Source of the DNA: an uncultured Pelagibacteraceae bacterium
Lineage (GTDB): Bacteria > Pseudomonadota > Alphaproteobacteria > Pelagibacterales > Pelagibacteraceae
Direction of reading: 5' to 3'
Length of the DNA: 32,943 bases
Assembly (NCBI GenBank): GCA_902553845.1
Contig: CACDMG010000004.1
Span: 1 to 32,943, forward strand
The translations under genes were made by a program, and so were the position numbers. A model generated the notes under the pieces. That model ran no database searches. It was not told where the DNA came from and worked only from the letters and a program-made list of their open reading frames with translations. Shown piece by piece: positions 20,853 through 26,124 of the stretch; position 1 is the first letter of the stretch; each line of letters starts with the position of its first letter.

Positions 20853-21296
20853 ATGGAAATAGCAGTTTTAGCACTTGGATGTTTTTGGGGACCAGAAATT
20901 AAATTTAGCAAAATTAATGGTGTTATAAAAACAGAAGTTGGATATTGTGGAGGAAATAGTCCAACAACAACCTATAAAGAAGTTTGCACTGGTAGCACTA
21001 ATCATGCTGAGGTTGTTAAGCTTGATTTTGATGAAAAAATTATAACATATGAAAAAATCTTAAAAACTTTTTTTCAAATTCATGATCCTACCACCTTAAA
21101 CTCTCAAGGACCAGATTTTGGGACTCAATATAGAAGTGAAATATTTTATCTAAATGATGATCAAAAAAAAATAGCCCAAAAAGTATTGCAAGATATTAAT
21201 CAAAGATTATCAGGTAAAGTTGTTACGAGAATTTCTTTATTAAAAAATTATTGTCCTGCAGAAGAATATCATCAAAAATATTTGGAAAAAAGATAA
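20853..21296 (+). CDS. msrA: Peptide-methionine (S)-S-oxide reductase
   Basis: 147 aa; LGCFWGPE catalytic motif, EVGYCGG, HDPTTLNSQGPDFGTQYRSEIFY. Confidence 0.95.
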   Translation: MEIAVLALGCFWGPEIKFSKINGVIKTEVGYCGGNSPTTTYKEVCTGSTNHAEVVKLDFDEKIITYEKILKTFFQIHDPTTLNSQGPDFGTQYRSEIFYLNDDQKKIAQKVLQDINQRLSGKVVTRISLLKNYCPAEEYHQKYLEKR

Positions 21297-21302
21297 GTAA
21301 AA

Positions 21303-22118
21303 ATGTCTTTAGTAGAAACAAATTGGTTAGAACAAAATATTAATAAAGTAAAAATTATTGACTGCTCTTGGCATATGCCTCAAACAAAAAGAAATGGTTT
21401 TTCTGAATATAAAATTAATCACATACCAGAAGCTATTTTTTTCGATTTAGATTTTAATTCAAAAAAAGATACTGAGTTACCTCACATGCTAGTAGAAACG
21501 GATGACTGGAAAGAAATAGTTTCTAAAATGGGAATAAAAAATAATGATAAGATTGTTATTTATGATAACTCAGACGTTGCAAGTGCATGTCGTTGTTGGT
21601 TTAATTTTATTTATTTTGGACATAATCCTAAATTAGTCCATGTTTTAAATGGAGGACTTAAAAAATGGATTATCGAAAATAGGCAGGTTACAGCTGAAAT
21701 ACCAAACATTAAAATCACTAATTACAATTGCATTGAAAAAAAAGAGTTGGTAAAAAATAAAAATTTTGTTGACCAAAACATTAAGGAACAAAAATTTAAA
21801 ATAATTGATGCTAGGAGTAAAGAAAGATTTGAAGGAAAAGTTCCAGAACCCAGAAAAGGATTAAGAAGTGGCAATATTGAAAATTCTTTTTGTATACCGT
21901 TTAATGAATGTTTAAATGAAAATAAAACGTTTAAGAACAAAGATGAGCTAGAAAATGTTTTTAAAACTTGTTTAGAAAATTTAGATGAAAAAAATATTGT
22001 TTTTTCATGTGGTTCAGGGGTTACTGCGTGTGTTTTGGCACTAGCATATTCTTTAATAAATGATAAATATCACCCTTGCATTTATGATGGATCTTGGGCT
22101 GAATACGGGTTAACTTAA
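21303..22118 (+). CDS. sseA: Rhodanese-type sulfurtransferase (3-mercaptopyruvate sulfurtransferase-like)
   Basis: 271 aa; tandem rhodanese domains; CGSGVTACVLALA active-site loop. Confidence 0.88.
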   Translation: MSLVETNWLEQNINKVKIIDCSWHMPQTKRNGFSEYKINHIPEAIFFDLDFNSKKDTELPHMLVETDDWKEIVSKMGIKNNDKIVIYDNSDVASACRCWFNFIYFGHNPKLVHVLNGGLKKWIIENRQVTAEIPNIKITNYNCIEKKELVKNKNFVDQNIKEQKFKIIDARSKERFEGKVPEPRKGLRSGNIENSFCIPFNECLNENKTFKNKDELENVFKTCLENLDEKNIVFSCGSGVTACVLALAYSLINDKYHPCIYDGSWAEYGLT

Positions 22119-22125
22119 AAAATAT

Positions 22126-22995
22126 ATGAAGAGATCTACAAAAATAATTTCAGTACTATTGGTGTTTTTTTTAATAATTGCGTTTGTAATTATTGGAAGA
22201 ACAATGATTGGAAATCATTTTAAAAAAAAATTTAGTAAAAGACCTCCTCCAGGAATAATAGTCACTGAAGTAATTAATAAAGAATTTGCAGAAAAAATTG
22301 AGACTTTTGGTACTGCAATCTCAAAAAAATCTGAAACTTTTAAAATAAAAAAAGATGATCTTTTTGAGGAAATAAAATTAAAAAACTTTGTAAAAAAAGG
22401 CGAAATTTTAATAAAATTAAAAAGTGGAAATATCGTGGCCCCTTTTAGTGGTGTTCTGGGTTATACAGGTCTTACTGAGGATATTCTCGTTTCAAATAAT
22501 ATTTTCATTATAACTTTAGATGATAATTCAACAATATATTCAGATATTAAAATCCCTGAAAATTATTCGGGTTCTATAGAAAAGGGCTTGCCAGTAGAAA
22601 TTAGAATTTCAAGTTATAATGATAAAATTTTTAAGGGTGAAGTTGACTATGTTTCAAGTAGAATTAATGCTGATACAAGAAGCCTACTTTCTAGAATAAA
22701 AGTAGAGAACTCAAATCTGGAACTTATTTCTGGCTCGTTATTAGAAGTCAGTGTTAAATTCAATCAAAGAAACTCTTTGAGCGTTCCTGATACAAGTGTG
22801 ATGATTGAAGGTGACAAATCCTATGTTTATAAAATTAATGATGAAAACATAGCTAATAAAACCGAGGTTACAACAGGAATTAGGAATGATAAGAGTATTG
22901 AAATAATCTCAGGTCTAACACAAGGAGATATTATTGTGGCTGAAGGATTAAAAAAAGTAAGACCTCGAGGAAAAATAAAACCAATAAATAAATAA
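22126..22995 (+). CDS. RND efflux periplasmic adaptor (membrane fusion protein), apparently lacking the alpha-hairpin
   Basis: 289 aa; lipoyl halves KNFVKKGEILIKLKSG / NIVAPFSGVLGYTG directly adjacent; C-terminal IISGLTQGDIIVAEGLKKVRPRGKIKP. Confidence 0.88.
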   Translation: MKRSTKIISVLLVFFLIIAFVIIGRTMIGNHFKKKFSKRPPPGIIVTEVINKEFAEKIETFGTAISKKSETFKIKKDDLFEEIKLKNFVKKGEILIKLKSGNIVAPFSGVLGYTGLTEDILVSNNIFIITLDDNSTIYSDIKIPENYSGSIEKGLPVEIRISSYNDKIFKGEVDYVSSRINADTRSLLSRIKVENSNLELISGSLLEVSVKFNQRNSLSVPDTSVMIEGDKSYVYKINDENIANKTEVTTGIRNDKSIEIISGLTQGDIIVAEGLKKVRPRGKIKPINK

Positions 22996-25900
22996 ATGCT
23001 TATTACTGAATTAAGTATTAAAAGACCTGCTGTCTCTTGGGTAATGTCACTTATCTTGATTGTTTTTGGTTTATTTGTGTTTTGGAAATTACCAGTAAGA
23101 GAATTACCAAACGGTATTCAACCACCTGTAGTTCAAGTTCAAGTAAATTACTCATCTGCTTCAGCCTCAATTGTTGATCAAGAGGTAACACAAGTTGTTG
23201 AGGATGTTATAGGTGGGGCAGAAGGTATAAAAAATATTGACTCTAAATCTGAAAACGGAAGAAGCACTATTAATATTGAATTCGATACAAATATTGATTT
23301 GGATAATGCTGCCAATGATATTAGAGAAAGAGTAGCAAGAGTAGTAGATAATTTGCCTTCTGAGTCTGATCCTCCTCAAATATTAAAAAGAGCTGCTGGT
23401 TTTACAACTACTATGTGGTTGTCTTTATCTTCATCTACATGGAGTGATCTTGAATTAGGAGATTATGCAGAAAGATACTTGGTTGATCAGTTCTCAAGTA
23501 TAAAAAATGTAGGAAGAATATTGGTTGGTGGTTTAAGGGAATTAAGTATTAGAGTATGGGTTAATCCAATTAAACTAGCTGCATATGACTTAACTATTAA
23601 AGAAGTTGAATTGGCGATACGAGGTGAAAATATTAGTCTCCCAGCAGGCACTCTTGAAGCAGATAATATTGATTTGACTTTAAACTTAGACAAATCTTAT
23701 AATGATATCAATTCAATTAAACAACTCCCAGTAAAGAAAACAGGAAATAAAGTTATTTTATTGTCAGATGTTGCTAATATTGAATATGGTCCAGTTTCTG
23801 AAAAAACTCTCTTTAAAGCTCAAACAAAAGATCAAATAAACTTAAAAACAGTTGGAATTGGAATTTATGCAAGAAGTGGAGCTTCAACTGTTGAATTATC
23901 AAAAGATATTAAAAAAAGAATAGTAGAAATTAAAAAATCTTTACCTGATGAATTAGATTTAAGAGTTTCTTTTAATAGAGCAAACTATGTCGAAGCTGCT
24001 ATTGAGGAAGTATATAAAACTCTTCTTATAGCTTTTGTTTTAGTTGTTTTAATAATTTATTTATTTCTTGGAAACCTTAAAGCTGTTATTGTGCCGGCAA
24101 TTGCTCTTCCAGTAAGTTTGATAGCATCATTTTTAGGCCTTTATATTTTTGGATTATCCATAAATATTTTTGTTCTTCTAAGTTTTATCTTAGCAATTGG
24201 AATAATTACAGATGACTCGGTCATTATGACTGATGCAATTTATAGAAGAATAGAAAATGGTGAGTCACCTTTAGTTGCTGCCTACAAGGGTTCTAAACAA
24301 ATTTCGTTTGCAATAATAGCAACTACATTAATTTTAGTAGCAGTTTTTCTCCCACTAATATTTGTTGAAGGAATTTCTGGAACTTTATTTAGAGAAACTG
24401 CAATCGCTTTATCATTTTCAATAGTTGTATCTTCTTTTGTTGCACTGACTTTATCACCGATGCTTGCGAGTAAATTTTTAGTAAAAAGATCATCTAAAAA
24501 ATTTTTTATTCAAAAGTTTGAAAAGTTTTTTTTAAGTTTTTCTAATTTTTATAAAGAAACATTAAGTACAACCGTATATAAAACTAAAACTGTCACTTTT
24601 TTCATTATTTTTATAGTTATAGCTTCAGTTTTATTATTTAATTTTTCTAAAAAAGAATTACTTCCTATGGAAGATCGTGGTGCATACTTAATTATTGGAT
24701 TTACAGATGAAGGAACTTCTTTTGAATATACACAGGAACAAGCTCAAAAAGTAGAAGCCAGACTTCTTCCACTTCTTCAAGCTGAGAACAGTCCTTATTC
24801 AAGATTTATAATGAGAGTACCAGGGTTTGGGGATTCAGCTAATTCTTATAACAGTTTCATAATAATTGCTCTACTAGATGATTGGAAGAATAGAAAAAAG
24901 GGACAAGAAGCTGTTTTAAGAGAAGCTATTGGAAAAATTGTAACTTTACCACAAGCTGTTGCATTCCCAATATCTCCTCAATCAATTAGAGTTTCGAGTT
25001 ACAATAAACCAGTTCAAATGGTTGTTTATGGAACTAATTATGAGGAACTTGAAAATTTACAAAATAGAATAATAAGAAAAATTAGATCAAATAAAAATCT
25101 TTCAAGAATAGAGTCTGATTATAATCGAAATAAACCTGAGGTTAAATTAATCATTAACAAAAATAAAGCTAAAGATCTTGGCATTTCATCAAAATCAATA
25201 GGGGAAACACTTGAAACACTTTATGGTGGTAAAAAAATAACAACTTTTAATAAGCTTGGTAAAGAATATCCAATAATTGTTCAACAATATTTGTCTGACA
25301 GAAGAAATAAAGATGGAATTTCAAAAATATTTGTAAGGTCTGAGACGAATGGAAAACTAATATCATTATCAAATCTTGTAAATTTTAAGGAGGAAGGTTC
25401 TGCAAAACAGCTTTCAAGATATAATAGGCAACCAGCTATAACAATTTCAGCGAATATCAATGAAGGTTACACTTTAGCTCAAGCTATAAGTTTCCTCGAG
25501 AAAGTCATGGCTGAGTTAGCTCCAGAAAATCAAATCACTTGGAAAGGAAAATCAGAAGAAATCAAAGAAACAAGTAATGAATTATTTATTATATTTGCTT
25601 TAGCATTATTAACTGCTTATTTAGTTATGGCAGCAACATTCAATTCATTTATACATCCATTCATTATTGTTTTAACTGTGCCTTTAGCTATTTTTGGTGG
25701 GCTTATTTTCATATTATTTCTTAATAGTTCAGTAAATATTTTTTCTCAAATAGCTTTGATAATACTGATAGGTATTTCAACAAAAAATAGTATTTTAATC
25801 GTAGATTATGCAAACCAAATAAGGACTACTGGAAAAAACATTGAAATAGCAATTAAAGAAGCTTGTGCTGTAAGGTTTAGACCCATTATAATGACATCAC

Positions 25901-26124
25901 TAAGTACAATGATTGCGATGTTACCTTTAGTAATAGGAAATATTGGTCCTGGAGCTGGCGAGGGTTCAAGATTAGCGGTTGGTTCAACCATTTTAGGGGG
26001 AATGATTATATCTACTTTTTTTACTCTATATGTTACGCCATCAATGTATTTTGCATTAGCAAAGAATACAAAAAGAATAGATATTGTAGATTTGGAGTTA
26101 AAAAAAGAATTATCTAAAAAATAA
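22996..26124 (+). CDS. RND (HAE1/AcrB-like) efflux pump inner-membrane transporter
   Basis: 1042 aa; ILAIGIITDDSVIMTDAI (proton-relay Asp pair), GISTKNSILIVDYA (Lys), typical RND topology. Confidence 0.95.
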   Translation: MLITELSIKRPAVSWVMSLILIVFGLFVFWKLPVRELPNGIQPPVVQVQVNYSSASASIVDQEVTQVVEDVIGGAEGIKNIDSKSENGRSTINIEFDTNIDLDNAANDIRERVARVVDNLPSESDPPQILKRAAGFTTTMWLSLSSSTWSDLELGDYAERYLVDQFSSIKNVGRILVGGLRELSIRVWVNPIKLAAYDLTIKEVELAIRGENISLPAGTLEADNIDLTLNLDKSYNDINSIKQLPVKKTGNKVILLSDVANIEYGPVSEKTLFKAQTKDQINLKTVGIGIYARSGASTVELSKDIKKRIVEIKKSLPDELDLRVSFNRANYVEAAIEEVYKTLLIAFVLVVLIIYLFLGNLKAVIVPAIALPVSLIASFLGLYIFGLSINIFVLLSFILAIGIITDDSVIMTDAIYRRIENGESPLVAAYKGSKQISFAIIATTLILVAVFLPLIFVEGISGTLFRETAIALSFSIVVSSFVALTLSPMLASKFLVKRSSKKFFIQKFEKFFLSFSNFYKETLSTTVYKTKTVTFFIIFIVIASVLLFNFSKKELLPMEDRGAYLIIGFTDEGTSFEYTQEQAQKVEARLLPLLQAENSPYSRFIMRVPGFGDSANSYNSFIIIALLDDWKNRKKGQEAVLREAIGKIVTLPQAVAFPISPQSIRVSSYNKPVQMVVYGTNYEELENLQNRIIRKIRSNKNLSRIESDYNRNKPEVKLIINKNKAKDLGISSKSIGETLETLYGGKKITTFNKLGKEYPIIVQQYLSDRRNKDGISKIFVRSETNGKLISLSNLVNFKEEGSAKQLSRYNRQPAITISANINEGYTLAQAISFLEKVMAELAPENQITWKGKSEEIKETSNELFIIFALALLTAYLVMAATFNSFIHPFIIVLTVPLAIFGGLIFILFLNSSVNIFSQIALIILIGISTKNSILIVDYANQIRTTGKNIEIAIKEACAVRFRPIIMTSLSTMIAMLPLVIGNIGPGAGEGSRLAVGSTILGGMIISTFFTLYVTPSMYFALAKNTKRIDIVDLELKKELSKK

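Follow-up and report, generated by a model that had tools for sequence, protein, structure and literature searches.

A hairpinless RND adaptor fixed across the Pelagibacteraceae, and matching changes at the tip of TolC

The alpha-helical hairpin of the periplasmic adaptors (membrane fusion proteins) of resistance-nodulation-division (RND) pumps is held to recruit and open the outer-membrane channel TolC, and to our knowledge BesA is so far the one solved exception to the hairpin-bearing adaptors. The hairpinless BesA (PDB: 4KKS, 4KKT and 4KKU) is the adaptor of the BesABC pump of Borrelia burgdorferi, in which disruption of the besCAB operon lowers minimum inhibitory concentrations by up to 64-fold (PMC3807786, PMC2279261). 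Greene et al. proposed in 2013 that the outer-membrane channel of BesABC sits directly on the lipoyl ring of the adaptor and on the funnel of the RND protein, and reported from sequence that the hairpin is also missing from adaptors of Treponema, Spirochaeta and, rarely, Legionella (PMC3807786). Here we describe a hairpinless adaptor encoded at positions 22126–22995 of the forward strand of a 32,943-nucleotide stretch of DNA (the window) from an uncultured member of the Pelagibacteraceae (SAR11). The source is assembly GCA_902553845.1, which comprises 634 kb and is 53% complete, and its contig 4 (CACDMG010000004.1) supplies the window. The absence of the hairpin is fixed across the family and has a single origin nested among hairpin-bearing adaptors. 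Both TolC and the RND partner have been retained, and TolC has changed specifically at its tip, with no lengthening of either TolC or the RND docking domain. Our literature searches found no report of an adaptor of this kind in SAR11.

The open reading frame encodes 289 amino acids and was recognized as an RND adaptor by the NCBI profile TIGR01730 (RND_mfp; 133.6 bits, cut-off 94.9) and the Pfam family HlyD_D23 (58.5 bits, cut-off 30). HlyD_3 was also matched above its cut-off, and both Pfam families were matched in all 28 adaptor family members. The first lipoyl half comprises residues 88–99, FVKKGEILIKLK (nt 22387–22422), and the second residues 102–112, NIVAPFSGVLG (nt 22429–22461), the two being separated by SG alone. 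The junction KLKSGNIVAPF (residues 97–107; 22414–22446, forward strand) is the expected insertion site of an alpha-hairpin. In an AlphaFold model made with an alignment of the 28 family members (mean pLDDT 86), this site is a tight two-residue turn linking strands 94–98 and 101–104. The only helix longer than a few residues is the N-terminal membrane anchor at residues 5–36 (22138–22233, forward strand), which is also evident in the sequence. Hence there is no alpha-helical hairpin with an RLS tip at the lipoyl split, where the spacing is 12 residues and the model has no helix, and a hairpin placed elsewhere in the protein is ruled out, the model having no long helix except the anchor. An earlier note on this DNA, made from its letters without database searches, had described the lipoyl halves as directly joined and the beta-barrel and membrane-proximal domains as remaining. 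Reading frame, SG gap and model agree with the former statement. As to the latter, the model aligns over 255–345 columns with BesA, MexA and AcrA and contains the membrane-proximal, beta-barrel and lipoyl domains. BesA, which that note had named as precedent, ranked first in a Foldseek search of the PDB (4kku, 4kkt and 4kks; E value 3e-15, TM 0.65–0.70), above MexA and AcrA.

The anchor is followed by a strongly conserved linker, HFxKKFxKxPPPG (22216–22254, forward strand), most positions of which are invariant columns of the 28-member alignment. It is near-invariant among Pelagibacter adaptors, while identity over the remainder of the protein falls to 42%. One group of Pelagibacter adaptors (L018, L020, L138, L140 and L142) carries a basic C-terminal extension of 17–50 residues. 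No lipobox Cys is present in the N-terminal sequence of the adaptor.

SAR11 ranks with the most numerous groups of bacteria worldwide, and the adaptor is present in nearly all of the family that was sampled. Orthologues were found in 229 of 247 Pelagibacteraceae genomes and in 12 of 13 genera. Among near-complete genomes the figure is 104 of 106, the other two having no match. The Pelagibacteraceae matches listed cover essentially all 289 positions and contain no internal stops, hundreds of assemblies made independently, some of them genomes in a single contig, give a protein of equal length, and the invariant residues persist in members with as little as 42% identity. The spacing between the lipoyl halves, counted from the residue after the KKG glycine (G92) to the one before the APF alanine (A105), is 12 in 52 of 53 Pelagibacteraceae adaptors and 13 in the remaining one, whereas in the nearest hairpin-bearing relatives it is 73 in 55 of 57 and 87 in two. 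The deletion that the earlier note had thought might be clade-wide is thus a feature of the family. Of the two findings that it had named in advance as speaking against its reading, a hairpin elsewhere in the model and an orthologue with a hairpin, neither was made, the latter among the 53 Pelagibacteraceae adaptors extracted.

Outside the family, the matches listed in two wider searches lie mainly in the second half of the protein, in frames of normal length for an adaptor. In a search of 289 alphaproteobacterial genomes it was matched, among the matches listed, in Pelagibacteraceae only, and the other alphaproteobacteria listed aligned mainly over residues 96–286, in frames mostly of 350–420 amino acids. 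Likewise, no full-length hairpinless match outside Pelagibacteraceae was among the matches listed for a sample of 398 Pseudomonadota genomes; both lists favour stronger matches, and rare distant cases may escape them. A tree of the shared domains, from which the hairpin had been removed, placed the Pelagibacteraceae adaptors in one clade (support 1.0) nested in hairpin-bearing adaptors of Proteobacteria. Judged from these sequences, the simplest history would be a single in-frame loss of 61 residues, the whole alpha-hairpin, in the ancestor of the Pelagibacteraceae. This loss and that in BesA look independent, because BesA was retrieved neither by phmmer nor by the SAR11 family profile from the PDB sequences (E value ≤ 10), whereas the hairpin-bearing MexJ, TriA and MexA were retrieved by the profile; the tree did not contain BesA.

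The earlier note had seen no TolC in the window. There is indeed none there, nor in the source assembly, but TolC is located elsewhere in 18 of 18 relatives with a completeness of 90% or more. Its loss is therefore ruled out, and the gap in the source is owed to the incomplete assembly. The search for an unlinked TolC, which that note had proposed, found a single unlinked gene in 42 of 43 Pelagibacteraceae genomes and in 11 of 11 genera. It is an orphan in a conserved position beside recA and alaS, not a member of the adaptor operon. Further adaptors were sought with HlyD_3 in six near-complete Pelagibacter genomes and 36 near-complete genomes of the family; Biotin_lipoyl_2 was uninformative as a probe, matching many other lipoyl- or biotin-type proteins. 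Of 40 near-complete genomes with a match, 37 had the hairpinless adaptor as their sole HlyD_3 match above cut-off, although very divergent adaptors could escape this probe. One further match each, below cut-off and in a larger frame, was present in G152, G363 and G372, and G525 and G563 had no HlyD_3 match. Three genomes (G370, G387 and G466) contain an additional HlyD-like locus encoding proteins of ~237 and 444 amino acids, the shorter with a hairpin-like stretch. These extra loci (L280, L281 and L282, in G387, G466 and G370) adjoin a large repeat-like gene, one of the genomes has a 726-residue frame that also matches HlyD_3, and the loci possibly serve the export of a giant surface protein.

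Mutational and structural work indicates that the hairpin places the Leu of its RLS motif on V/TGV, a motif present in each of the two TolC repeats (PMC4069162, PMC4446572), and in MexAB-OprM there are further tip contacts at neighbouring glycines (PMC6447562). The two motifs start with V146 and V364 in the TolC of E. coli. We compared 40 Pelagibacteraceae TolC sequences with 29 from related alphaproteobacteria, 12 from a sister family (f2; hairpin-bearing adaptors), and that of E. coli. All 40 Pelagibacteraceae have R, K, N, S or T at position 146 and S, T or R at position 364, while both positions are hydrophobic in all 42 others. Position 374, Asp in E. coli, is Gln in 39 of the 40 and Gln or Ser in all. 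The closed-gate residues D153 and R367, together with Y362, are retained in all 40. A scan for which no positions were chosen beforehand identified only five hydrophobic/polar switches (146, 151, 355, 364 and 375), all of them in the periplasmic tip, to which 36 of the 151 columns eligible for the scan belong (p = 6e-4, for columns that are non-independent and tip limits that were set by the analyst from the region around the published contacts). With a looser threshold six of six switches fell in the tip (p = 3e-5), and with the alphaproteobacteria alone as comparison six of seven (p = 0.001). Control comparisons of two hairpin-bearing groups gave no significant tip enrichment (p = 0.07 and 0.39), and small-genome alphaproteobacterial TolCs showed no switch. 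A cruder test, asking whether conserved tip columns are lost oftener than others, reached only p = 0.053. A change of T152 to Ala or Ser, universal in the first ten sequences, was dropped since Thr is present in 17 of 40. The disappearance of these hydrophobic seats for the hairpin is consistent with a TolC to which no hairpin binds any longer.

Neither TolC nor the docking domain of the RND partner has been lengthened in compensation. The TolC helix segments are unchanged at 45, 70 and 41 residues, the H7–H8 loop being the only site with extra residues (1–2), and the model of a Pelagibacteraceae TolC has the ordinary fold. The partner is an RND permease of the hydrophobe/amphiphile efflux (HAE) type, with 1042 amino acids (22996–26124, forward strand; PF00873, 845.9 bits; NF033617, 909 bits), and its gene and that of the adaptor are neighbours in every one of the 59 full-length loci checked. 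The earlier note had rightly credited it with the DD and K relay residues. The Asp pair of transmembrane helix 4 (ITDDSV; 24205–24222, forward strand) and the Lys of helix 10 (STKNS; 25777–25791, forward strand) correspond to D407/D408 and K940 of AcrB, and the equivalents of R971 and T978 are also retained. The switch scan used for TolC gave none in 120 docking-domain columns of the RND protein and, together with the comparison with AcrB, led us to reject a compensating extension of that domain.

The explanation that we favour, and consider probable, is an adaptor of ordinary proteobacterial descent that has lost its hairpin and acts within a minimal tripartite pump, with TolC on the lipoyl ring and the RND funnel. 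The anchored ring of membrane-proximal, beta-barrel and lipoyl domains would still clasp the proton-driven RND trimer. The helical tip of the single orphan TolC would seat directly on the lipoyl ring and the funnel, giving a shorter pump without a coiled-coil sleeve. TolC would have adapted where the hairpin tip formerly gripped it, V146 and V364 becoming polar or charged and the ring residue D374 being lost. On balance, and with somewhat less assurance, we also lean towards regarding SAR11 as an independently evolved, family-wide case of such a pump, where recruitment and opening of TolC proceed with no adaptor hairpin, TolC having co-evolved at the hairpin-contact motif. The earlier note had offered two outcomes, a different docking to TolC or delivery to the periplasm. 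On the sequence evidence we favour docking, because the TolC tip has changed together with the adaptor and TolC is kept almost throughout a family most of whose genomes show no second adaptor.

Several observations weigh against a tripartite pump. TolC lies outside the operon, so that its partnership with the adaptor, along with the mode of docking and opening, is something that we infer. G525, which is 94% complete, carries TolC, and the adaptor was not detected in it. The closed-gate residues have been kept, unlike those of BesC, with no visible substitute for gate-opening by the hairpin. Moreover, the TolC pattern represents one clade and one event, its p values measuring clustering along the protein and not replication, and the tip change could be a consequence of relaxed contact with any partner. 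The alternative that survives best is a two-component pump, in which the RND protein and the adaptor would take lipophilic substrates out of the membrane or periplasm and release them in the outer periplasm, making no contact with TolC, and TolC would serve otherwise or open by itself. The unlinked, conserved site of TolC, the missing hairpin contacts and the lack, in most genomes, of a detected hairpin adaptor able to open TolC are all in its favour, and we regard it as possible but distinctly the less probable. It has to contend with the retention of TolC in 42 of 43 streamlined genomes, mostly with no other membrane fusion protein to use it, with the strict retention of the gate residues and helix lengths, and with the fact that BesABC functions with a hairpinless adaptor (PMC3807786, PMC2279261).

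It is unlikely that a separate protein provides a coiled-coil bridge from the adaptor ring to TolC. The authors of the BesA structure had to allow for such a factor (PMC3807786), and the shorter HlyD-like protein of G370, G387 and G466, with its hairpin-like stretch, might be put forward. However, these extra proteins are missing from the other near-complete genomes tested, the conserved cluster contains no further gene of unknown function, and the chemistry of the TolC tip is now unsuited to a standard hairpin tip. Still less probable is a decaying pump, its adaptor inactivated by the deletion and its operon on the way out: one domain has gone and two of 106 near-complete genomes have no match, but the listed orthologues are free of stops, the invariant residues hold down to 42% identity, the RND relay is intact and the cluster is kept in 59 of 59 loci. 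An assembly or gene-calling artefact, which the 53% completeness of the source might suggest, is ruled out by the orthologues in 229 of 247 genomes and by the equal length across independent assemblies.

The conserved cluster begins at window position 20853 with a peptide methionine sulfoxide reductase, MsrA (20853–21296, forward strand; PF01625, 199 bits). A sulfurtransferase with two rhodanese domains (21303–22118, forward strand; PF00581, two stretches) lies directly upstream of the adaptor. Both genes are kept in all 59 Pelagibacter loci, the arrangement is recognizable in another genus (L283), and Pfam families revealed no further gene of unknown function in the cluster across the 59 loci. 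Since the adaptor–RND pair always follows msrA and the sulfurtransferase, gene order hints that the pump substrate may be linked to oxidative or sulfur stress. In three genomes of f2 (G046, G037 and G045; loci L135, L136 and L137), a tandem pair of RND permeases lies near TolC and a 352-residue adaptor. These permeases lack the equivalents of AcrB D408 and K940 (IDG/VDG and VNNN motifs); therefore their proton relay must differ.

Although hairpinless adaptors are known from BesA, what appears to be new here is that the trait is fixed throughout an entire dominant family of marine bacteria, seems to have arisen independently through a clean deletion, and is matched by a change in TolC. The exception is thus the rule in SAR11, with TolC altered at the predicted contact motif and the RND funnel unaltered. 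This natural deletion experiment bears on the tip-to-tip model and supplies residues with which to test it. If the tripartite pump is correct, it would be shorter by about one hairpin length, and would constitute a second natural route to pump assembly beside BesABC, with the closed-gate network kept.

Among known systems BesA is the nearest in fold. In both proteins the hairpin is replaced by a short connection, a nine-residue loop in BesA and a two-residue turn in SAR11, the other domains are retained, and each is apparently the sole RND adaptor of a small genome. BesA is a lipoprotein, whereas its SAR11 counterpart carries an N-terminal anchor helix. The channel gene of BesABC lies in the same besCAB operon, while in SAR11 the gene for TolC stands apart, with recA and alaS next to it. 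BesC has lost the TolC gate network, of which the SAR11 TolC has kept D153, Y362 and R367, with D374 changed. By sequence the closest solved relatives are MexJ, TriA, MexA and AcrA, which share the three common domains and an operon with an HAE-type RND permease. AcrA and MexA have the lipobox Cys that the SAR11 adaptor lacks, and all four have the hairpin, the nearest relatives having 73 residues between the lipoyl halves where the SAR11 adaptor has 12.
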